Shown: positions 30,456-47,077 of the stretch, piece after piece
Numbering within the stretch: the first letter of the stretch is position 1
Layout: each line of letters opens with the position of its first letter
Assembly: GCA_947589035.1 (NCBI GenBank)
Contig: CANPYZ010000015.1
Span: forward strand, 1 to 49,708
DNA from: an uncultured Clostridia bacterium
GTDB lineage: Bacteria > Bacillota > Clostridia > Oscillospirales > Ruminococcaceae
Direction: 5' to 3'
DNA length: 49,708 nucleotides
Notes under the pieces: generated by a model
The model's database searches: none
Told to the model about the DNA's origin: nothing
Seen by the model: only the letters and a program-made list of their open reading frames with translations
Position numbers and translations under genes: made by a program

Positions 30456-31442
30456 TTACGATTCGTTTTGATGGAACCAGTTCAAAAGTTTTTCTCCTTG
30501 TTCGTTAATCGAAAGTATCCATTCCGCCTGCTCGTTTTCTGTATAATTGACAAGCTTTTCAATACCGCTCCGGATTCTGGCGGGGTTATGATACCTGTCC
30601 CATTCTTCTGTGAATTTTTCCGCATTGCCATACCATTCAGGAATTTCATTTCTCCGGCATTGCAGATATTCAGGGACATTGTCAGTACAAATTAACCATA
30701 ATGGAACGTCGTCACATAAAGGATTACTCCAATGTCCATTTGTCAAATGTACTGGCTTTTTTTTCAGTTCAGGGAGAAGTTGTTTGGCTTTGTGCATATT
30801 GACGTGAAACCATAAAGCATGGTCAGAATCAGCATTCCAATCAGCCTCGTCCAGCTTTTTATGCCCATAATCAATAAAATCACAAATCTGTTCCATAGAA
30901 AGGCGACATAAATTAAACTCTTTCTCAGGATTCAGCCGCAGCACTTTTATCAGAAAATCAGTTTGTACATATTTTAATACATGATATAATCCTTCTGCAA
31001 TATTCAATAAATTGATACTGCCAAACTGACTGATAAATTGATAAGGAATCCGTTTCAAATCTTCCCGCAAATTTTCTGAATCCATTTCTTTCCGGTCAAG
31101 AAATTCCGCATGATAAATATAGAGGATTCCAAAAAGTTCCTGTTGACTCATTGTCAGATGAAGTGTTCTGACAATAGTATTTGTTTCCTCGTCAAATAGA
31201 AAATACGGAAACCGGTCAGGTAAATCATTTTCTTCACTGATAAGCATTTCATAAATCAACTTTTCCAAGGGAATATTAAACAGCTCGGATAGCTTTGAAA
31301 GTTTTTCAAGGCGTATCTGATTTTTCCCACTTTCCCAGTTCTGCACGGCAATAGTGGATACTTTTAATTCTTCAGCGAGCCGTTCTTGTGTAAATCCTGC
31401 TAACTTTCTGTTTTGCTTAAGCATTGCACCAAAAGAGTTCAA
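30456..31442 (-). CDS. XRE-family regulator with large C-terminal domain
   Basis: 328 aa. TTG 31442 is taken as start because AAAGGAGG lies 7 nt upstream of it; the ATG-initiated frame begins ten codons earlier, in front of that ribosome site. The HTH (about 5-60: MLKQNRKLAGFTQERLAEEL, VSTIAVQNWESGKNQIR) is clear. The C-terminal 260 residues are helical and acidic, with no known enzymatic motif; they may bind a ligand or partner. A promoter and a palindrome AAAGT-TTC-ACTTT lie upstream, suggesting autorepression. It is the first gene of a two-gene operon. Confidence 0.85.
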   Translation of the reverse strand: MNSFGAMLKQNRKLAGFTQERLAEELKVSTIAVQNWESGKNQIRLEKLSKLSELFNIPLEKLIYEMLISEENDLPDRFPYFLFDEETNTIVRTLHLTMSQQELFGILYIYHAEFLDRKEMDSENLREDLKRIPYQFISQFGSINLLNIAEGLYHVLKYVQTDFLIKVLRLNPEKEFNLCRLSMEQICDFIDYGHKKLDEADWNADSDHALWFHVNMHKAKQLLPELKKKPVHLTNGHWSNPLCDDVPLWLICTDNVPEYLQCRRNEIPEWYGNAEKFTEEWDRYHNPARIRSGIEKLVNYTENEQAEWILSINEQGEKLLNWFHQNES

Positions 31443-31512
31443 ATTTCTGCCTCCTTTTACAGTATACACCATATGACATCTAAATTACACTAAGTAAAAC
31501 TACATTTTTCAA

Positions 31513-31560
31513 AAAGTTTCACTTTGTAATTATGATAACATATATTCAAGCAATTGTCAA
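31513..31560 (-). promoter_or_regulatory. promoter and probable operator of the XRE operon
   Basis: Minus strand TTGACA (31555-31560), 17-bp spacer, TATCAT (31532-31537). Just downstream on the transcript lies the palindrome AAAGT-N3-ACTTT (31513-31525), and a related half-site follows near 31490-31500. Confidence 0.65.
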
Positions 31561-31633
31561 GAAGAAAAGCATAAAAAAGCATAAAATAAAACCAGCTATG
31601 AAAAAATTCCAAAGCCGTTAGTGATTATATTTT

Positions 31634-31765
31634 TTACGAAAATGTGAAATACTTTACATAATCGGAAATTCTGTATTTATCATTGGTCATTACGCTGTCA
31701 TGTTTATTTTTACGATAATTTTCAACAGCATTAAAAAAACTGTCATTTGCCCTGATTGTCTTCAT
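31634..31765 (-). CDS. possible 43-aa protein
   Basis: ATG 31765 to TAA 31634. The peptide MKTIRANDSFFNAVENYRKN... is hydrophilic with no motif. It overlaps by 23 bp the natural end (in another frame) of the broken gene upstream, a normal arrangement for coupled genes in mobile elements. No ribosome site of its own is visible. It may be a small gene or part of the same decayed unit. Confidence 0.35.
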   Translation of the reverse strand: MKTIRANDSFFNAVENYRKNKHDSVMTNDKYRISDYVKYFTFS

Positions 31766-32143
31766 ATTCTGAAAGCAGATTGCGCATTTGCTTAACAAAA
31801 TCCAGTACATGTTCTAAATTCTTTTCCAGTTCTTTATTCCATAAGTTTCTTCGCCGAGATGTTCCACAAAAAGTGGTTTATTGGCATTTCCGGTATGACC
31901 ATAATGTCCATTAGTATGCGTACTGTTTACGATGTCTGGAAATCGTTCTGTAAATTTTTCGTAAAGCCGTTCAGCTCTGGTTGGCTTGGACTGAATATCC
32001 ATTTCTTTTTCAGCAGATTTTGTCACTGCCACAGACTCACGGTCCTTTTCCGTTTCCGAAAATGTGCTGTATGTGTTAACTTTTTCATTATCCAAGTAAT
32101 TTAGATTCTCTTGCTTCACGTCCAAAAGATTCCGGATTTTCAA
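31743..32143 (-). pseudogene. frameshifted gene, probable mobile-element remnant
   Basis: The frame 32143 to 31814 gives 109 residues (TTG start, no good ribosome site) ending ERLYEKFTERFPDIVNSTHT...FVEHLGEETYGIKN. Near 31845 a shift into another frame restores a sensible helical C terminus, LWNKELEKNLEHVL and DFVKQMRNLLSEYEDNQGK, ending at TGA 31743. So a single indel probably broke the gene. The look is that of a small accessory protein of a conjugative element, but I cannot name the family. The N terminus also lacks a convincing start, so it may be truncated. Confidence 0.5.
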
Positions 32144-32162
32144 AAAATTTTTGTCAAAACTC

Positions 32163-32191
32163 TTGACAAGTTGATAAAGTTGTGGTATATT
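32163..32191 (+). promoter_or_regulatory. sigma-A promoter of a candidate small RNA
   Basis: TTGACA (32163-32168), 17-bp spacer, TATATT (32186-32191). The predicted start site is at about 32198, exactly where the terminal stem of the RNA begins. Confidence 0.75.
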
Positions 32192-32197
32192 TATAAC

Positions 32198-32287
32198 AAC
32201 AACACTTGTAGACTCGGTGTTACCATCTTTGAATGGTACGCTTAAGGACTGAAAACCTTTGAGTAGTCTAACAAGTGTTGTTTTTAT
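32198..32287 (+). ncRNA. candidate structured small RNA, about 90 nt
   Basis: The 5' ACAACACTTGT (32199-32209) pairs perfectly with ACAAGTGTTGT (32271-32281), then AGAC (32210-32213) pairs with GTCT (32266-32269) around one bulged A. Inside lie a hairpin TACCAT-CTTTGA-ATGGTA extended by a bulge and three more pairs, and a second small hairpin AAGG / CCTT. That is a three-way junction. TTTTTATT follows the closing stem, so the same stem can act as an intrinsic terminator. Promoter, ends and fold fit one compact independent RNA. It matches no family I know. It lies 300 bp before the FHA-ABC/kinase operon, on the same strand. Confidence 0.68.
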
Positions 32288-32474
32288 TCTTTCAGAGTAT
32301 TGTTAGAATGAATATACTGAGCATGAACATAGATTCAGTTTCTCTGGTGACAGTGAAAATTTTAAGTTGAATTTTCTGTACGGAGTTTTATTTTATTTGT
32401 TGCTTTTTGTGTTTGATTTTTACCTAAATTCTACTAACAATACAGAAGAAATACAAATTTTGACACAAAGTCTC

Positions 32475-32503
32475 TTGACAAAACCATGAAAGCATGATAT
32501 AAT
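32475..32503 (+). promoter_or_regulatory. sigma-A promoter of the FHA-ABC/PP2C/kinase operon
   Basis: Perfect TTGACA (32475-32480) and TATAAT (32498-32503) with 17-bp spacing. The leader is about 78 nt and ends with AAAGGAGAG before ATG 32588. The stretch 32288-32474 between the small RNA and this promoter shows no gene. Confidence 0.88.
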
Positions 32504-32587
32504 AATTATGAGATATAATAACGACTTTGTCAAAAGCGATGAAAACTTTCTCAAAGACGGACTAATAATGCAAAAGGAGAGATAATC

Positions 32588-34225
32588 ATGATTAACAATA
32601 AAACGGTGTACTATACACCTCTTCCATCTAAGCCTGCTACGCTGCTGATTTTAGAGCGTGGCAAACCTGTACGTGTGATAACATTGAAAGGTGATATGCG
32701 TTTAGGGCGGGAGGAAGCTGAAACCCGTAATGATATTACATTACGGTCATCTATTGTTTCCCGTCATCATGGTGATTTTTCTTATATAGATGGTGTGTAT
32801 TATTATAAAGACAACAATAGTCTTAACGGAACTTTTCTTAACGGAAAGAAAATGGAGTCGTATAACAAACAAGGCACCAAATCAGTGGCTTTACACGATG
32901 GTGATGTACTTAGAATTGATCGGCAGACACTAAATAATCCACACCCTGAAGCGGTTGAAATGATTTTTAGTATGACTTTTTCCCCAGATGATAATTGGGC
33001 TAAGTATTCTCTGCAAGGAAAATCTGAAGTGAAAATTGGTCGGGAAGTAGACGGGATTCGGCTTCCGAATTTCATGGTTTCCCGACATCATGCAACGTTA
33101 AAGCATTTTGGTAATAATTGGATTATATATGATAATGACAGTAAAAATGGTACTTTTGTAAACAATGAAGCAGTTGAAGAAAAACATATCGTAAATCCTT
33201 TTGATGTTATCCGGATAGCGAACATAACTTTAATTTTTACTGGTGAAGAAATCGTTTACGTTGCAGGACGTTCTGATGTAACTGTTGCAAAGCCATTCCG
33301 TTATGCTGAACGTTCTGTCATTATGTCAGTCAATATCAATCAAGTGTATACGAAAAGCCATTTATTCTCTAAGAGTAAGATTTTACTAAAAAATATAAAT
33401 CTTGATATTGAATCCGGAGATTTTATTTTAGTATTGGGTGGAGCAGGTGCTGGAAAATCGACTTTCATTAAAGCCATTACTGGACAAAAAGTTCAGGAAG
33501 GATTAGAAGTAGAAGGGGCAATAATATTGAACAAAATGGATTTATACAAGAAGAGCAATCTTCGATTGTTAAAACTCAAAATTGGCATTGTTCCACAATA
33601 TCCGGATTACAGACCAAATGATACAGTGTATCATACAATTCTTGACTCCGCACTTCTGCAATTATCTTCTGATTATAGCAGACAGGAAATTGAACAGAAA
33701 GTGGAAACGGTCATTCGAAATATGATGCTAAGTAACATCCGTGATAGTAAACTTTCCGTAATCAGCGGCGGACAAAGAAAAAGAGTGCAAGTTGCGATAA
33801 AAGCTGTAGGAGATATTAGCTTTTTCACATTTGATGAACCTGATGCCGGACTGGATATTGCTGGGCGTAAAGATCAAATTAATCAGTTATCTTCAACCAT
33901 ATTGAAAGATGTGGAACCTTTGACTCCTGAATCATCAAAAGATAATGCCATAGAATTACAGCAAGCCACTTTGAATGGAACAGCTGGGTTAATGATTTCC
34001 CATTATCCTGATGATGTAGCAGAAAAATATACAAAAGTAATTGTTCTTGCCAAAAGCAAAATTGACGATGCTGGTCATCTTGCCTATTATGGTGATGTTC
34101 CGAATGCTTTATCATTCTTTGGCGTACAGAAACTAAGCGATATTGTGTATGAAATTAACTATGAAGGCGGAAAAGGACGTGGCGACGAATTTATCAAGAA
34201 ATTTGAAAATACAAGGAAAGGCTAA
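32588..34225 (+). CDS. double-FHA protein fused to an ABC ATPase domain
   Basis: 545 aa. FHA1 (about 17-130) has G40-R41, S58-R59-H60 and N80-G81; FHA2 (about 137-220) has G151-R152, S165-R166-H167 and N187-G188. Both keep the residues that bind phosphothreonine. The ABC domain (about 248-515) has Walker A GGAGAGKST (284-292), signature ISGGQ (392-396), Walker B with FDEP (D416, E417) and H-loop His472, so it should hydrolyse ATP. It resembles the ABCG-type ATPase with N-terminal FHA domains, but the usual membrane domain is missing from this protein and from its neighbours. It may energise a transporter encoded elsewhere or act as a non-transport ATPase controlled by the kinase two genes downstream. 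Confidence 0.88.
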   Translation: MINNKTVYYTPLPSKPATLLILERGKPVRVITLKGDMRLGREEAETRNDITLRSSIVSRHHGDFSYIDGVYYYKDNNSLNGTFLNGKKMESYNKQGTKSVALHDGDVLRIDRQTLNNPHPEAVEMIFSMTFSPDDNWAKYSLQGKSEVKIGREVDGIRLPNFMVSRHHATLKHFGNNWIIYDNDSKNGTFVNNEAVEEKHIVNPFDVIRIANITLIFTGEEIVYVAGRSDVTVAKPFRYAERSVIMSVNINQVYTKSHLFSKSKILLKNINLDIESGDFILVLGGAGAGKSTFIKAITGQKVQEGLEVEGAIILNKMDLYKKSNLRLLKLKIGIVPQYPDYRPNDTVYHTILDSALLQLSSDYSRQEIEQKVETVIRNMMLSNIRDSKLSVISGGQRKRVQVAIKAVGDISFFTFDEPDAGLDIAGRKDQINQLSSTILKDVEPLTPESSKDNAIELQQATLNGTAGLMISHYPDDVAEKYTKVIVLAKSKIDDAGHLAYYGDVPNALSFFGVQKLSDIVYEINYEGGKGRGDEFIKKFENTRKG

Positions 34226-34236
34226 GAGGGAGCTAT

Positions 34237-35142
34237 ATGCTGTTTAACTTATTCAAGAAGAAAAAACCTTCAAAAGGTACAGACAGTAACAAACCATCAA
34301 ATTCGGATATACAAAAAAATTCCTCAAACCAATCTAATATTACTGTTTCTGTTTCAATATCTACAAATCCAGGCTGTATACGAGAGGTTAATGAGGACAA
34401 TTTTTTTGTGAGTCATATTGGCAACAAACCATGCGCTATATTTTCATGCGATGCAGTCATGCATGAGAGTAAATTCTTTTTTTCTGCGGTTTTTGATGGT
34501 ATGGGCGGAGAAGCATTCGGTGAAGAGGCATCTAAAATTGCGTCAGCTACATTAAAAGAATTTTCTGCAAATTTCGACGATAGCGACAGTAAAGACTTTG
34601 ACATGAAAAAGAAGATAAAGCAATTTATCTCTTTAGCGAATCGCCGTATCATGGAAATGATTGCTGAAAAGAAATGTCATCGCAGCGGCTGCACTATGGC
34701 ATTGATTGTCATTTGGAACGAAATGGCTTATGCGTTTAATATCGGAGATAGTCGTATTTATCGTTGCGATAAAAATTCACTTGAACAAATTTCAGAAGAT
34801 CAGACACTTGCCATGAAAAAACTGAAAGCCAACATTTACACAGAAGAAGAGGCTCGTAATAGTCCTGATGCACATAAAATCACATCATATATTGGTTTAG
34901 ATAATCGTGGGCTTGGTGTTCCTTATCACGCCTATGAACCTTTCCCGATAGCAGAATCAGTTCTTTTACTTTGTAGTGATGGTTTAACGGATATGTGTAC
35001 TGATGAAGAAATCAAGTCTGTTTTGTTGAGCGAGGACGAAACACCAGCAAAATCACTCATGAAATTGGCAATAAAAAACGGCGGTGAGGACAATGTCACC
35101 TGCATTGTGATCAATACAAAACAAAAAATTGAAAAAAATTGA
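34237..35142 (+). CDS. PP2C-family protein serine/threonine phosphatase
   Basis: 301 aa. After a 35-residue hydrophilic N-terminal extension comes the PP2C core: SISTNPGCIREVNEDNFF, AVFDGMGGEAFGEEAS, GCTMALIVIWNEMAYAFNIGDSRIY, LLLCSDGLTD and GGEDNVTCIVI. The metal-binding Asp residues in VNEDN, FDGMGG, CSDGLTD and GEDN are all present. It removes phosphate from Ser/Thr in the cytoplasm and is the natural opponent of the kinase encoded next. It lies 11 bp after the FHA-ABC gene, with GAGGGAG as ribosome site, and 13 bp before the kinase start. Confidence 0.93.
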   Translation: MLFNLFKKKKPSKGTDSNKPSNSDIQKNSSNQSNITVSVSISTNPGCIREVNEDNFFVSHIGNKPCAIFSCDAVMHESKFFFSAVFDGMGGEAFGEEASKIASATLKEFSANFDDSDSKDFDMKKKIKQFISLANRRIMEMIAEKKCHRSGCTMALIVIWNEMAYAFNIGDSRIYRCDKNSLEQISEDQTLAMKKLKANIYTEEEARNSPDAHKITSYIGLDNRGLGVPYHAYEPFPIAESVLLLCSDGLTDMCTDEEIKSVLLSEDETPAKSLMKLAIKNGGEDNVTCIVINTKQKIEKN

Positions 35143-35155
35143 AAGAAAGGTATAT

Positions 35156-37435
35156 ATGGATATTCGTGATGTCATTGAACAGGTAATCAAGCCACAAATC
35201 AAACAACCCTTATGGGAGAATTGGTATATTAAAGAAAAAATCGGTTCTGGATCATTCAGTGTTGTTTATCGAATAGAAGCACAGCGTCCAAGTGGTTTAG
35301 ATGTTTCTGCGCTTAAAGTCGAAGCGATTATGTCTGATAAACAGATTTTCACTGACAGTTTTCGTAAAACAACTTTTCTCAACAGTAGAAAACAGATGGC
35401 AATTAACGAAGCACAGATTATGAAAAAACTCCGTGACTGCCCCTATATCGTCAGATATGAAGAAGAATATATGCAGGAACTCTATATAAATGGTGAATTT
35501 GAAGGGTATTATTATCTAATTAGAATGGAATTTTTGCAAAATGTCTATGACCTGATGAAAAAAGGATGGTTTCCTTATTCAGAAGAAAATGTAAAAAAGC
35601 TTGCTATAGAAATAGGGCAAGGTTTACACGCTGCGCATAGTATAGGAGTAATTCACAGAGACATAAAGCCTGATAATATGTTTGTTAGTGATGCGGGGAT
35701 TTACAAACTGGGCGATTTTAACATTTCAAAAAAAGCTGTGTCTACCAGAACATATGCAGGTACTCAATACTATATGGCACCTGAAATTTACCGTGCAAGA
35801 ACGAACATTGACGCAAGCTATACCACTCAAGCGGATATATATTCATTTGGTTTATGCTTATATCAAATGATGAATAATGGGCAACTGCCATTTGAAGACA
35901 AATTAGATCCAGATACGGCTTATGACAAACGTATGTCTGGACCAGTGAATTTTCCACCACCTTGTAACGGAACTCTTGAATTTATAAGAATCATATTGAA
36001 AGCGTGTTCCTTTAATCCAAATGAACGATACAGATCCGTTAATGATATGCTGATGGAACTCAATGGTAAAACGCAAACAACAGCTAATATTACTGAATAT
36101 GCAAATTATGGTTATTATCCAGCCACAGGGCAAGGCAATCCGAACGAAAGATACGAATCTGTTAATCCTAATGCTACTGCGTATGCAGATGATTACCAGA
36201 GTTTATATGAAAGATATGAATCCGTTCATGATAGAATGCAGACACCATCTAATGCTACTGCATATGCAAATGATGATTATCCAACTCCAAGGCGAGGCAA
36301 TTTAACTGAATATGCAAGTGATGACGATCAAATGCCGCCATATCATGGCAATGCTACAGAATATGCCGGATTTGATGATAATTATGATAATAATTATGAT
36401 CAAACGCCTTATGGCACACAAGCAACTCCGGTTAATCCAATTTATAGTAAAACAGACACAATTCCAATTAAGTTAATTTCTGTAGTTATTGCATTTATTC
36501 TGCTTGTCATCGGGATTGCTTTAGGAATCCCAGAACATGATGAATCCGATCATGAATCTGAATCTTCTGATGACACAGTTGAAAATGAACAGCCTTCTGA
36601 TCGTCAGAATCACATAATGGAAAACACAGAGTCCGAATCATTAAGTACATCAACTACAGCTGAAGAAAGCACAATCAGTAGTACAATTGAAAGTGAACAG
36701 TCTTTTAGTCGTCAGAATTACATGGTGGAAAACACAGAAGCTGAAGTATTAACTACAGTACCACCAGAAAGTACTACTATTACTATAAATCCAGCTGAAG
36801 AAATACCAACTAATTATATCATTGAAAGTGAACCGCCTGTTAATCAGCAAGATTACCTACCAGAAGAACCAAACAATGATATTCCTGTAGACCCAGTTGA
36901 AGAAGTCATTGTTGAAGGAAATGAACCTGATGAACCTGATGAACCTGTTGTGCAGAATCCAAGTATGACTATACCGCATCTATCAGACTATAGTTCTCAT
37001 ATTTCCGACATTACTTCAAGTAGTCATCTGGCGAATGAAACGTATGGAAACACAACATACGTCCATTCAGCAGAACAAGCATTTGATAATGATTTGTCCA
37101 CTTGTTGGAGTGAAGGCGTAGATGGGTACGGGGTAGGGGAATCTATCACGGTTTTTTTTGATAATACATATGAAATATCGGAATTTTCTCTATATAACAG
37201 CTTATGTACAAACGAAGATTTATTCTACAAGAATACAAGACTGCAAAGTATTTCCGTTATATTATCAAACGGAAACAGCTATGATTTTGAATGTGCAGAT
37301 GGTTGGGAGAACAGGAATAATACATTCTCATTTGGGGAAAATGTGGAAACATCATCATTGACCATTATCATTCAATCTGTTTATGCGGGAAACAAGTATG
37401 AAGATACTTGCATATCCGAAATAAGCATATCATAA
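35156..37435 (+). CDS. transmembrane Ser/Thr protein kinase with extracellular glycan-binding-like domain
   Basis: 759 aa from ATG 35156, chosen for GAAAGAAAGG upstream. Kinase domain (about 20-300): G-loop IGSGSFSVVY, Lys54 in ALKVE, HRDIKPDN (167-174), DFN in place of DFG (187-189), APE (208-210). The juxtamembrane part (305-430) has five T-[EA]-Y-A motifs at T313, T341, T368, T384 and T401, plus copies of ERYxSV. One membrane helix lies at about 437-458. Outside are three imperfect repeats of about 45 residues (ExEQ..xRQN), a Pro/Glu linker, and a terminal domain of about 140 residues: AFDNDLSTCWSEGVDGYGVG, FYKNTRLQSISVILSNG. That domain resembles the NADase-type/discoidin-like glycan-binding fold. 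PASTA domains are absent. Confidence 0.9.
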   Translation: MDIRDVIEQVIKPQIKQPLWENWYIKEKIGSGSFSVVYRIEAQRPSGLDVSALKVEAIMSDKQIFTDSFRKTTFLNSRKQMAINEAQIMKKLRDCPYIVRYEEEYMQELYINGEFEGYYYLIRMEFLQNVYDLMKKGWFPYSEENVKKLAIEIGQGLHAAHSIGVIHRDIKPDNMFVSDAGIYKLGDFNISKKAVSTRTYAGTQYYMAPEIYRARTNIDASYTTQADIYSFGLCLYQMMNNGQLPFEDKLDPDTAYDKRMSGPVNFPPPCNGTLEFIRIILKACSFNPNERYRSVNDMLMELNGKTQTTANITEYANYGYYPATGQGNPNERYESVNPNATAYADDYQSLYERYESVHDRMQTPSNATAYANDDYPTPRRGNLTEYASDDDQMPPYHGNATEYAGFDDNYDNNYDQTPYGTQATPVNPIYSKTDTIPIKLISVVIAFILLVIGIALGIPEHDESDHESESSDDTVENEQPSDRQNHIMENTESESLSTSTTAEESTISSTIESEQSFSRQNYMVENTEAEVLTTVPPESTTITINPAEEIPTNYIIESEPPVNQQDYLPEEPNNDIPVDPVEEVIVEGNEPDEPDEPVVQNPSMTIPHLSDYSSHISDITSSSHLANETYGNTTYVHSAEQAFDNDLSTCWSEGVDGYGVGESITVFFDNTYEISEFSLYNSLCTNEDLFYKNTRLQSISVILSNGNSYDFECADGWENRNNTFSFGENVETSSLTIIIQSVYAGNKYEDTCISEISIS

Positions 37436-37456
37436 TTCATGTAAAGGCGAAACATT

Positions 37457-38458
37457 ATGAAAAAATTACTCTCATTCTTAATTTTAACAATATTGTTGAC
37501 TGGTTGCGCACGAGTCAGTGAAAAGCAAGTCTTATCTGATGATTCAGAACTCGAAACGACTACTTCAACTACAGCCGCAGCGATTACTTCCATATCTTCA
37601 GTATCTTCTACTTCTATGATTAATACTACTGCGAACCCTGTTGAAACAACGGAGTCAATTTCTACCCCACAGCAAGAAGAAAGTACGATGATTTCCACAT
37701 ATCCCACTAATCCCGCTAACCCAATTGAAACGGATACAACAGTATCCCCTGTAATGAATACTCCTTCAAGTTTTGTTGAAACAATGGAATTAATTTCTAT
37801 CACGCAGCAAGAAAAAAGTACAATAATTTCTAAATATCCCACTAATCCCACGAATACAACAATTGAAACAAATACAACAACTGAAGTAGTGTCTGAAATT
37901 GTTCCGGAAGATGGACAATTAGTCCGTATTCTTGACTTTATTCCCGATGCAGAAATTGATTTAAGATATGCAACTACCAATAATTTTACAGGTACTGTAA
38001 TATACGATGATTCGGAGGCTTATTTGTGCTATGGCACAGTTAAGAAACTTATTTCTGTCCAGAATGAACTGAAAGAAATGGGCTATCGAATTTTAATATG
38101 GGACGCATATCGTTCTACAGAAGCGCAATGGAAATTATGGGAAACTTATCCAGACCCTACTTTCGTCGCAAACCCTAATAATGGCATTACAAGCCATAGC
38201 CGTGGAAACACGATAGATATTTCTTTAGTCTATGAAGATGGCTCTCCAGTTGAAATGCCATCAGCATTTGATGAATTTGAAGCAATTGCCGACCGGGATT
38301 ACAGTGACGTTTCAGAAACTGCTGCTGCAAATTCAAGACTACTTGAAGAAGTGATGTACAGACATGGTTTCACGGGCTATTGGGGCGAATGGTGGGATTA
38401 TTCTGATACAAACCAATATGAATTGATACCTGCTGTATCTCTAAATTCTGCAAAATAG
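37457..38458 (+). CDS. VanX-like D-Ala-D-Ala dipeptidase lipoprotein
   Basis: 333 aa. Lipoprotein signal with lipobox LLTGC (Cys17). A Thr/Ser-rich stalk (30-150) holds two copies of a 31-residue repeat (VETTESISTPQQEES..., VETMELISITQQEKS...). The M15D peptidase domain (about 155-325) shows DLRYATTNNFTG, WDAYRS with Arg219, SHSRGNTIDISL with zinc ligands His247 and Asp254, and GEWWDYSD with Glu311. In VanX the residue three after that Glu is the third zinc ligand, His; here it is Asp314. VanX is cytoplasmic and cuts the D-Ala-D-Ala dipeptide; this protein faces outward, so a wall-derived substrate is likely. It lies 21 bp after the kinase gene and ends the operon. Confidence 0.85.
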   Translation: MKKLLSFLILTILLTGCARVSEKQVLSDDSELETTTSTTAAAITSISSVSSTSMINTTANPVETTESISTPQQEESTMISTYPTNPANPIETDTTVSPVMNTPSSFVETMELISITQQEKSTIISKYPTNPTNTTIETNTTTEVVSEIVPEDGQLVRILDFIPDAEIDLRYATTNNFTGTVIYDDSEAYLCYGTVKKLISVQNELKEMGYRILIWDAYRSTEAQWKLWETYPDPTFVANPNNGITSHSRGNTIDISLVYEDGSPVEMPSAFDEFEAIADRDYSDVSETAAANSRLLEEVMYRHGFTGYWGEWWDYSDTNQYELIPAVSLNSAK

Positions 38459-38517
38459 GCTAAAAATTCTACCATAAGCATGGGAGGGGAGAAGGCGTTT
38501 TTCTGATAATAAAAATT

Positions 38518-38538
38518 CCCCTGTCTGTATGACAGGGG
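38518..38538 (-). terminator. terminator of the lipoprotein gene
   Basis: CCCCTGTC / GACAGGGG, perfect 8-bp stem with 5-nt loop, followed on the minus strand by AATTTTTATT. Confidence 0.85.
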
Positions 38539-38544
38539 ATTGAT

Positions 38545-39729
38545 TCATTGAACGGTTGATTCGTAATTATACTGTTCCGCATTGGCGGTGACACATGCAT
38601 TAAACAGGCTGTCTATATCTCGATAACCTCTGAAATGGTAAAAGATTGCAATGAAATTGACATAACCATAGTCACTTTCTGAACTGTTTTCACAGAGTTG
38701 TCCGGAGCTTAAATCTACAGAACATGTTCCGTCTCCTAAGATTTGAATATCGGAATACCGATAAAATGTATAATAGGTTTCTTCACCCTGAACTTTTTCA
38801 CTGCTGCTTCCGCCTCTTTTTAAAGCGTTAATGCTTGCCGTATATTTATACACTAAATATAAATCATTATACGGTGACGGGGAAAAACCTTCTTTTCCTG
38901 TCAGGAAATAATACCCTACAAATTCCGGTTCTCCCTGCATAGTGCAGTCTTTTTCCCATGTTGTGCCGTAGGAACGGAGTGCATCAGCAGCTTGATTTTT
39001 CATTTTTTCCTGCATGTCTTCCGGAATGTCTTTCAGTTCAGCCGCATAAGAAGTCAAGCCTTCAACAGTATATTCTTTTTCCGTGCAAGTAGGAATTTTA
39101 CCGGCTTGAATACAAATCTCTTCCAATGTACTGCTTTCAGAAGATGAATCCGCTGTAATGGTGACTTTGTCGCCATTTTTCAAATTTTCGTAGGGGTTCG
39201 CATGGAAAACTAAATTGCTGACATTTTCACTGCCGACTTCCATATTAATTTGCCCGTAAGGTGCCGTTCCGGTAAACGTTACCTGCAAATTGTCAAATGG
39301 GTCAAATTCTTCTGCTTTTTCGAGATTTTCAACAGGATACGTCTGGTCTTCATAACTGAAACTAACGGGATAATTTTCCTGTAAAGCAGCTAAATTGCTG
39401 ATTTCCCAATGGTACTGCACGCTGTCGCCGTTGGATAAATCACTGGTTTTGTCCAGTTCTCCGGAAATTGCTTCTTCTAATTGAATTTGCACGCTTAAAG
39501 CGTCCATTTCGCTGGAAGAATCCGTTAAACCGAATGCTTTCGGATTTTCTTTAATCATGGCTTCAATATCTAAATTACTGGAAGCCGTGCCGACAGTATC
39601 GTAACCATCACAATCTACGCTAAGATAATCATTCAAATTCACTTTTGTTCTGCCGCAGCCAGTAAACAGCGCACATAAACATAAAGCGGTCATAAAAACA
39701 GTACATTTCCGGTTCATATTCATGTTCAT
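38545..39729 (-). CDS. lipoprotein of unknown function
   Basis: 394 aa. Signal peptide with lipobox ALFTGC, so it is anchored on the outer membrane face by lipid. Two or three beta-rich regions follow: about 105-215 looks like two Ig-like or DUF-type beta domains (SVQYHWEISN, LQVTFTGTAPYGQINMEV), and 260-370 is an alpha/beta part with YLVYKYTASI and TFYRYSDIQI. I do not recognise the family, although multi-domain lipoproteins of this shape are common in Ruminococcus-like genomes. The start overlaps the upstream membrane-protein stop by four bases (ATGA), so the two are translationally coupled. Confidence 0.78.
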   Translation of the reverse strand: MNMNMNRKCTVFMTALCLCALFTGCGRTKVNLNDYLSVDCDGYDTVGTASSNLDIEAMIKENPKAFGLTDSSSEMDALSVQIQLEEAISGELDKTSDLSNGDSVQYHWEISNLAALQENYPVSFSYEDQTYPVENLEKAEEFDPFDNLQVTFTGTAPYGQINMEVGSENVSNLVFHANPYENLKNGDKVTITADSSSESSTLEEICIQAGKIPTCTEKEYTVEGLTSYAAELKDIPEDMQEKMKNQAADALRSYGTTWEKDCTMQGEPEFVGYYFLTGKEGFSPSPYNDLYLVYKYTASINALKRGGSSSEKVQGEETYYTFYRYSDIQILGDGTCSVDLSSGQLCENSSESDYGYVNFIAIFYHFRGYRDIDSLFNACVTANAEQYNYESTVQ

Positions 39730-41303: not shown

Positions 41304-41813
41304 ATGCCTGAACGCCGTGAAATAGAAGAATTGTTCCATTCCTTTCACAGCGAATTTGAATCCATTGTTATGGAGTTGGTTGAAGGCAAAATAGACAAGT
41401 GTATTCTTGATGCAATGTTCGAGGATTTCGACACTTTGCAGGAATTTTTGTCGGGCAAATCCGAAAAAAAAGGTCGCATGACTTACAGACAATTGCAGGA
41501 AAAGTCTATTTCCAAACTTGACAACATTGAAGTTTCTGACCGAAATATCGGGGATTTTCTGAAAATCACACGAAAATATGATGTGGATTTTGCCCTAAAA
41601 AGAGATAAAAATAATCCACCGACATATCATGTTTTCTTTTCTGCTGCCAGAACAGAGGATTTCAAGAAAGCATTTTCGGAGTATATCGGCAAAGGGCAGA
41701 GCAAAAAGTGCGGCAAGTTTACCCGTGAGCAGATGCACCAGCAGGCACAGAAAATTAGGAATAAACCACACAAACAGAAACAGAGAGAAAAAACGAGGGA
41801 GAACAGAAGATGA
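41304..41813 (+). CDS. DUF3801/PcfB-like protein of conjugative elements
   Basis: 169 aa. The part from about residue 56 on (GRMTYRQLQEKSISKLDNIEVSDRNIGDFLKITRKYDVDFALKRDKNNPPTYHVFFSAARTEDFKKAFSEYI, cited in pieces) matches DUF3801: KLDNIEVSDRNIGDF, KYDVDFALKRDK, YHVFFSA. PcfB-type proteins work with the VirD4 coupling protein in conjugation. The N-terminal 55 residues differ from what I expect for the family and may be recombined. The C terminus is strongly basic. A broken VirD4 gene follows directly, the standard order in Firmicutes integrative conjugative elements. Confidence 0.72.
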   Translation: MPERREIEELFHSFHSEFESIVMELVEGKIDKCILDAMFEDFDTLQEFLSGKSEKKGRMTYRQLQEKSISKLDNIEVSDRNIGDFLKITRKYDVDFALKRDKNNPPTYHVFFSAARTEDFKKAFSEYIGKGQSKKCGKFTREQMHQQAQKIRNKPHKQKQREKTRENRR

Positions 41814-46877: not shown

Positions 46878-46948
46878 ACACTTTTTTTGCTTTTAATTGG
46901 ATTTTATAGGAATAAGGTCATTTGCCTATTGCTAATGCTAATGATGGT

Positions 46949-46982
46949 ACGCCGTATGAGGGGAAACTTTCATGTACGGTGT
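46949..46982 (+). mobile_element. group II intron domain V (intron 3' remnant)
   Basis: A 34-nt hairpin starting ACGCCGTATGAGGGGAAAC folds like group II domain V: seven lower pairs with the CGCCGT / ACGGTG core, a two-nt bulge on the 3' side, seven upper pairs and a GAAA tetraloop. It is followed by GTATAGTGGGGG..., the usual start of domain VI in this intron class. No reverse transcriptase or 5' domains are found upstream, so only the 3' end remains. The rest of 46541-47128 has no gene. Confidence 0.65.
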
Positions 46983-47077
46983 ATAGTGGGGGAAAATCCG
47001 GCGATAACTTCAAAAAATTACTAATTGAACAGTACTTCATCTGCAATTTATTATATCACTTTTGACTGGGTTTGTCA

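Follow-up and report, generated by a model that had tools for sequence, protein, structure and literature searches.

Among described systems, the one closest to the locus considered here is the kinase-regulated exporter of mycobacteria. PknF of Mycobacterium is reported to phosphorylate Rv1747 in an interaction that requires both FHA domains. Phosphorylation promotes the clustering of Rv1747 and is undone by the phosphatase PstP; the exporter itself is tied to envelope components (PMC3908365, PMC7761784, PMC9312465, PMC5549992). We analysed a 49,708-base stretch of DNA (the window), which is the entire contig C15 of a 72-contig, 2.4-Mb draft genome of an uncultured clostridial bacterium. The window carries a cluster of four genes, which encode an FHA-FHA-ATP-binding cassette (ABC) ATPase, a PP2C-type Ser/Thr phosphatase, a transmembrane Ser/Thr kinase and an M15-type lipoprotein (Table 1). 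This cluster is related to the phospho-regulated PknF-Rv1747 exporter and represents a clostridial form that lacks one part. As in M. tuberculosis, two N-terminal FHA domains are followed by an ABC ATPase, a kinase gene lies in the cluster, a phosphatase opposes the kinase (PstP there, PP2C here), and an ABC2-type permease is found elsewhere in the family. Rv1747 is a single polypeptide with its membrane domain, whereas the permease that would match the window ATPase is a separate and unlinked gene; the kinase ectodomain, the presence of PP2C in the cluster and the lipoprotein also set the window apart. What is new here is the unlinked permease with its relic, a second such split and an array of T-x-Y-A motifs, the cluster itself being a variant of a known exporter. 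A first-pass annotation of this DNA had stated that no described system was known to combine these parts; a module of kinase and FHA-FHA-ABC exporter is described in Mycobacterium. In the available portions of the literature searched, which excludes most subscription papers, we found no description of a clostridial FHA-ABC-kinase-PP2C system.

The direct relatives of the cluster are linked clostridial clusters (among them L083, L080 and L079; genomes and loci of our survey carry G and L numbers), in which the permease gene lies directly behind the ATPase gene, unlike in the window. MsmK of Streptococcus suis is an ATPase subunit for permeases encoded elsewhere (PMC4519317). MsmK resembles the window ATPase in being unlinked; unlike the window ATPase, it lacks FHA domains and works with sugar importers. 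Here, by comparison, one ATPase would serve one permease, and a relic records the lost link. The PP2C gene adjoins that of a membrane Ser/Thr kinase, as in the PrkC/PknB and PrpC/Stp pairs, and the window phosphatase scores 158 bits against the Stp1/IreP model (cut-off 230). In contrast to PrkC/PknB, the window kinase has no PASTA domain and carries an NADase-type F5/8 domain instead, and an FHA-ABC ATPase is present in the cluster.

The intergenic gaps of the cluster are 11, 13 and 21 nucleotides (nt). The promoter-like site upstream is the sole 12/12 site among 38 such sites in positions 31400-38600, where shuffled sequences gave 29.1 (standard deviation (sd) 5.4). Short gaps and a 12/12 sigma-70-type promoter are as expected for one operon, and the four genes are probably transcribed jointly. 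The cluster, this promoter and an upstream RNA candidate with its own promoter-like site all lie where they had first been annotated. A promoter-like site on the minus strand (32505-32533, 11/12) extends over the beginning of the cluster's leader; the TTGACA of this site and the -35 box of the cluster promoter are inverted repeats of each other. Within the ATPase, the FHA matches span residues 38-110 and about 147-218, and ABC_tran spans 267-419. Both FHA domains retain the GR, SRxH and NG motifs of phosphothreonine binding, and the ATPase motifs are intact (Walker A GGAGAGKS, the Q-loop, ISGGQ, DEP, and SH at the H-loop). Against family models, the ATPase scored 85 bits with TIGR00955 (ABCG-like) and 95 and 90 bits with ECF ATPase models, all far below cut-off. 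A profile search of solved chains gave ABCA proteins as the best matches, with CDR1 and ABCG proteins also among them. The predicted structure of the ATPase (mean predicted local distance difference test (pLDDT) 77.6, predicted template-modelling score (pTM) 0.52) was used solely to assess tail disorder and for an approximate fold comparison, in which Foldseek placed ABCG25 best and many other ATPases after it. The kinase domain (Pkinase, residues 25-292) has ALK, HRD and APE, with DFG replaced by DFN, as is likewise the case in the kinase counterpart of L083. The PP2C motifs DGMGG, GDSR, SDG and EDN are all present.

The missing part is the permease. The ABC2 membrane domain is neither fused to nor beside the ATPase in the window locus, and a permease remnant in the junction was ruled out, as the short gap leaves no room for one. 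A full-length ATPase orthologue is rare in the genus: of 38 genomes, 4 have it, including one in which a contig end interrupts the gene, and a search for the permease found it in the same four. In G037 and G020 a separate ABC2-type permease gene (PF01061) lies behind the ATPase gene. Beyond the genus, at cut-offs of 1e-60, 1e-80 and 1e-90, an ATPase match was found in 17 of 297 genomes of the family, 14 of 394 of the order and 11 of 391 of the class, our own genome counted each time. Over these four ranks, 39 of the 41 other judgeable loci reached through the ATPase have the ABC2 permease fused (18) or adjacent (21); G019 was left out of this count, as its ATPase stops at a contig end. A second survey started from the permease; of the 193 named loci that it gave, the 80 with the best matches were kept, from rumen and gut Ruminococcus, Oscillospiraceae and Lachnospiraceae. 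The ATPase adjoins the permease in 79 of these best 80 (78 by script, L127 by tblastn), and the remaining locus, L120, is cut by the contig start. Neighbours were counted on the same strand and at most five genes away, which yields lower bounds owing to contig ends; on this count at least 58 of the best 80 loci have PP2C, 45 a kinase and 37 both. The clostridial module is widespread, contrary to the novelty at first ascribed to its parts, and the four-part set of the first-pass annotation overlooked the permease, which is normally beside the ATPase and here lies on another contig. The co-occurrence check proposed there came out divided: ATPase, permease, PP2C and kinase recur together and are not merely scattered homologues, whereas the lipoprotein comes close to being merely scattered, and the RNA was not seen to accompany them in the genomes and loci searched. 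Two Ruminococcus loci, L083 and L123, have the four gene types of the window and the permease as well, in the order ATPase, permease, PP2C, NADase-type kinase, M15. The L083 kinase is close to that of the window; the L123 kinase has the same architecture with a kinase domain of another type. Because these relatives with the same gene types carry the permease, the window is best described as their five-gene arrangement minus the permease.

A single permease of this kind is encoded in the genome and lies on contig C24 (L042:15462-16295, about C24:39461-40294). It is a stop-free PF01061 gene some 1.3 kb from the end of the contig, with 75% identity to the G037 permease. Immediately upstream lies an FHA-ABC relic of 142 nt in three pieces, collinear with nt 1-49, 1338-1379 and 1590-1638 of the window ATPase gene (blastn E values of 4e-4, 3e-9 and 2e-8, in this order), the last of which reaches the stop codon. 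The chained score of the relic with the window gene is 122; the highest score among 500 Markov shuffles was 56, and the ATPase genes of L080, L083, L082 and L079 gave 82, 76, 88 and 70. The presence of an ATPase-gene relic beside the C24 permease implies that the genome formerly had two ATPase copies; judged from these remains, one site would have kept the motor and the other the channel. In 29-row trees, from which L095 was omitted (its ATPase aligned in part only), the window ATPase pairs with that of L080 (100/100) and the C24 permease pairs with that of L080 (96/92). The conservation test omitted L095 and L121, and the column conservation of the C24 permease falls inside the range of the linked permeases (lowest 0.928). 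The C24 pieces have guanine-plus-cytosine (GC) fractions of 0.400 and 0.374, and their tetranucleotide correlations with the genome mean are 0.990 and 0.987 (0.929-0.994 for 19 other contigs).

Unlinked ATPases were also found elsewhere. In G816, a distant clostridium that belongs to another family, the ATPase is intact and stands by itself in a 15.8-kb contig; the permease, also intact and by itself, is on a different contig, and in trees both fall in the G020 clade. An FHA remnant beside this lone permease was sought and rejected, as the tblastn matches in the 2.6 kb upstream were weak (best E 0.02). The lone FHA-FHA-ABC-like ATPase of G583 (L191:6884-8338) has a degenerate Walker A, GGSVEDRT, and the profile that detected the permeases of G816 and G986 found none in the G583 genome. 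A functional split is favoured because the intact motors (window and G816) accompany a genomic permease, while the motor of G583, for which the search gave no permease, is broken; the cases are few.

The juxtamembrane tail of the window kinase holds five T-x-Y-A repeats. Over the inner tails of 42 transmembrane kinases, this motif was observed 22 times against 1.5 expected by shuffling, and 17 times against 1.3 in the 41 that remain when the window kinase is set aside. Outside the tails of the same 42 kinases, it occurs nowhere in the kinase domains and once in the outer parts. The N-terminal tail of the ATPase (residues 1-14), predicted to be disordered, holds KTVYY. Of 74 relatives, 42 carry a T-x-Y-Y motif in this tail, where 0.5 would be expected (6 of the 80 loci were dropped, the ATPase frame being not found or outside 400-620 amino acids (aa)), and T-[VI]-Y-Y is present in 23 of the 25 of the closest set. 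The repeats and the T-[VI]-Y-Y tail are thereby marked, by sequence pattern, as shared candidate phosphothreonine sites for the FHA domains. The kinase ectodomain differs among loci (NADase-type, SH3 and C-type lectin, leucine-rich repeats), a variety that fits a receptor role of the kinase. The recruitment of the FHA-ABC ATPase by a receptor kinase, as the first-pass annotation envisaged, gains partial support from the analogy with PknF-Rv1747 as reported and from the repeated threonine motif in the kinase tail. In G037, a gene behind the kinase gene (L038:2619-4187) encodes a membrane protein with SH3 domains and a TVYA ahead of the membrane segment, in the presumed inner part; this protein is a candidate for a further FHA partner.

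Taken together, the cluster is probably the regulated motor of an Rv1747-like exporter, with its permease supplied in trans from C24. The kinase would detect an outside ligand via its glycan-binding-type domain, phosphorylate the threonines of its own inner tail and probably also phosphorylate the T-V-Y-Y tail of the ATPase. The two FHA domains would bind the phosphothreonines, by which ATPases would be drawn to the membrane, and PP2C would undo this phosphorylation-dependent recruitment. The ATPase would drive the C24 ABC2 permease, exporting some envelope lipid, glycolipid or similar compound. We infer the physical partnership of ATPase and permease, as we do the phosphorylation sites, the ligand and the substrate. 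As for the history, an ancestral FHA-ABC/permease/PP2C/kinase cluster may have existed in two copies; the window copy would have lost its permease and the C24 copy nearly its whole FHA-ABC gene, the permease staying open, and the two loci would have become mutually dependent. A fuller reading, which we offer tentatively and regard as rather doubtful in its entirety, is that of a phospho-recruited two-locus exporter. Its motor would stay cytosolic until the kinase, as a glycan sensor, has phosphorylated its own tail, and the repeats would gather several ATPases, possibly into a condensate, for loading onto permeases made elsewhere. Valency would have moved from the exporter linker, as in Rv1747, to the kinase, and the split of motor and channel would have happened at least twice in clostridia. 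If true, this would be an ABC exporter with motor and channel from unlinked loci, joined by kinase-FHA docking; phospho-control of ABC transport would become testable in soluble parts, and the motor could be studied apart from its membrane domain. Concrete candidates for FHA recognition are provided by the T-x-Y-A array and the T-[VI]-Y-Y tail, in clostridia of rumen and gut that form a large group with next to no study so far. The relic illustrates a route by which an operon may be dismantled while its parts persist.

The lipoprotein, which had been proposed as a part of the system, is not a core part. By the neighbour count above, at least 2 of the best 80 of 193 loci have an M15 gene, 3 the NADase-type domain, 4 a beta-lactamase-fold protein and 1 WXG100. 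The window protein reads EWWD at a site where EWWH stands in 1r44, a solved enzyme of the VanX type, and in the M15 neighbours of L083 and L123. The zinc ligands of VanX-type M15 enzymes are the H-D-H of SHxxGxxxD and EWWH; SHSRGNTID is present in the window M15 domain. The NCBIfam VanX model gives the lipoprotein 71 bits (cut-off 320), and a D-Ala-D-Ala dipeptidase activity predicted from its sequence is uncertain. EWWD and EWWH differ by one base, and a draft error is possible. In L107, L108, L109 and L110 a protein like the beta-lactamase-fold lipoprotein of L065 lies near the kinase gene, directly behind it in L107, L108 and L110; it may occupy the place of M15 in these loci.

The upstream RNA candidate stands outside the exporter argument. 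The stretch 32190-32290 folds at -32.2 kcal/mol, compared to a mean of -17.49 (sd 3.14) for 200 shuffles (z -4.68, none as stable). It has no Rfam match at the gathering score, and a lax search of 32100-32600 returned six sub-threshold matches, none of them over the RNA. By DNA search of the 38 genus genomes, it was found in its own genome only, plus a 22-nt match to the terminator stem elsewhere in G037. A model search of the 297 family genomes, with the stricter filters that apply above 40 genomes, gave one genome with a match, its own, and no good match was found in 18 loci of relatives and 19 stretches of other contigs. The searches as a whole, which included a model search of 38 sources, also returned its own reverse strand and, on contig C33, a weak match (E 0.25). 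A single sequence, entered twice, had served to build the model, and distant relatives could escape it. The conservation of the RNA with the cluster, as first anticipated, did not hold within the searched genomes and loci. We rejected it as a conserved regulator, since nothing was found beyond its own copy, the reverse strand, the weak C33 match and the short G037 match.

Other explanations of the locus have to be weighed. The window ATPase could have left transport to become a soluble phospho-reader or signalling ATPase, with the C24 permease as a vanishing leftover. The locus indeed has no permease, the lone ATPase of G583 with its degenerate P-loop shows that orphan forms exist, and the C24 permease ranks fifth lowest of 40 rows in near-invariant columns kept. 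Yet the window ATPase, unlike that of G583, has every ABC motif intact, the C24 permease retains a full open frame and 62 of 65 such columns while the neighbouring ATPase gene shrank to its present remnant, and G816 provides a second intact split pair; we consider a departure from transport unlikely. Less likely again is a draft artefact, in which C24 would belong to a different strain or species, or a mis-join would lie in the window contig, and the true operon would be linked. The number of contigs, the position of the permease close to the end of C24 and the linkage in L080-like relatives all speak for such an artefact. However, ATPase and PP2C are contiguous across their gap, and so are relic and permease within C24; with both altered loci contiguous, two independent mis-joins that remove exactly complementary genes would be needed, which is improbable. 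The GC and tetranucleotide composition of C24 is also within the range of the genome, and of the ATPase genes compared, that of the window matches the relic best. The version of the first-pass annotation, a novel system of four parts that senses the wall, with a wall-peptide-trimming lipoprotein and a role for the upstream RNA, appears very improbable to us. L083 and L123 do carry an NADase-type kinase and M15 behind ATPase, permease and PP2C, and with the beta-lactamase-fold protein of four other loci, peptidoglycan-related enzymes recur at this position. The ancestral set, however, contains a permease, M15 is as infrequent as stated above, the window M15 deviates at a zinc-ligand position, and the RNA was confined to its own genome in the searches.

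Several observations weigh against the trans-supplied exporter that we prefer. The T-x-Y-A motif was picked after inspection of the window, and the kinases counted are mutually related; at least one copy is present in 13 of the 42 tails and none in 29, and 14 of 56 kinases had been excluded from the count, no transmembrane segment being found in them. Rv1747 has a disordered linker of about 150 residues between its FHA domains, whereas in the window ATPase the two domains are close and there is none, the model having no low-confidence stretch between them; the threonine repeats of the window sit in the kinase tail, a further difference from Rv1747. The pairing of the C24 permease with L080 goes down to 85/81 in a 15-row tree, in which the four-row clade holds at 99/98. 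Compared by raw identity, the C24 permease shares 75% with L085 and L083 and slightly less, 73%, with L080. Its standing in the near-invariant columns, given above, belongs here as well, and synonymous sites are saturated, which leaves no estimate of selection from the ratio of nonsynonymous to synonymous substitution (dN/dS). The promoter-like site upstream of the C24 permease and relic (L042:15200-15228) is an 11/12 match, and there are 4 such sites against 6.0 in shuffles. The composition match of C24 is also compatible with a contig from a close relative. With the genome in its draft state, the presence of both halves in one cell depends on binning (0.69% contamination) and on composition.

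Table 1. Coordinates of the cluster and of associated features in the window.
Feature	Position	Strand	Remarks
RNA promoter-like site	32163..32191	+	TTGACA-17-TATATT, 11/12
Structured RNA candidate	32197..32290	+	~93 nt; long closing stem, then T run
Cluster promoter-like site	32475..32503	+	TTGACA-17-TATAAT with TG, 12/12
FHA-FHA-ABC ATPase (Rv1747-like exporter subunit that binds nucleotide; no membrane domain)	32588..34225	+	545 aa
Junction without permease gene	34226..34236		11 nt; nearly all relatives have the permease here
PP2C-type Ser/Thr phosphatase	34237..35142	+	301 aa
Ser/Thr kinase with inner tail, one transmembrane segment and outer NADase-type domain	35156..37435	+	759 aa, read from ATG
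Five T-x-Y-A repeats, kinase juxtamembrane tail	36092..36367	+	Thr 313, 341, 368, 384, 401; spacing 16 to 28 residues
Predicted transmembrane segment of kinase	36452..36508	+	by hydropathy; sole hydrophobic segment, about residues 433-451
NADase-type glycan-binding (F5/8 type C) ectodomain of kinase	36992..37429	+	NADase_transloc, residues 613-758
M15 (VanX/DdpX-like) lipoprotein	37457..38458	+	333 aa; Peptidase_M15 155-320; LTGC at residue 14

Further candidates and neighbours can be dealt with briefly. The MADS anti-phage set was not found in a PADLOC scan of the seven locus proteins only, not of the wider genome. The kinase matches mad6 over its kinase domain (167 bits), the ATPase matches mad3 and mad8 weakly, and PP2C and the lipoprotein have no match; a defence system was rejected on these generic kinase and ATPase matches. 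A viral origin was likewise rejected, as none of 14 pattern matches to the ATPase in viral contigs was confirmed. In L067 and L111 (2939-5723), whose contigs are equally long, two small WXG100-like proteins come after an ATPase-permease-PP2C cluster, which may connect one lineage with type VII secretion; for the module as a whole this link was rejected, with WXG100 genes adjoining the single locus counted above. Beside the C24 permease (L042:8111-14999) lie three minus-strand genes, for a protein with a DNA/RNA non-specific endonuclease domain, a HerA-type ATPase of 1221 aa and a dynamin-family GTPase of 854 aa, which could be a mobile or defence-like set. In the window itself, a few kb downstream of the cluster, positions 41304-41813 encode a DUF3801 protein, of a family known from conjugative elements, and positions 46947-47056 (+ strand) match the Group II intron family (Rfam RF00029) at 43.6 bits, where the gathering score is 40.

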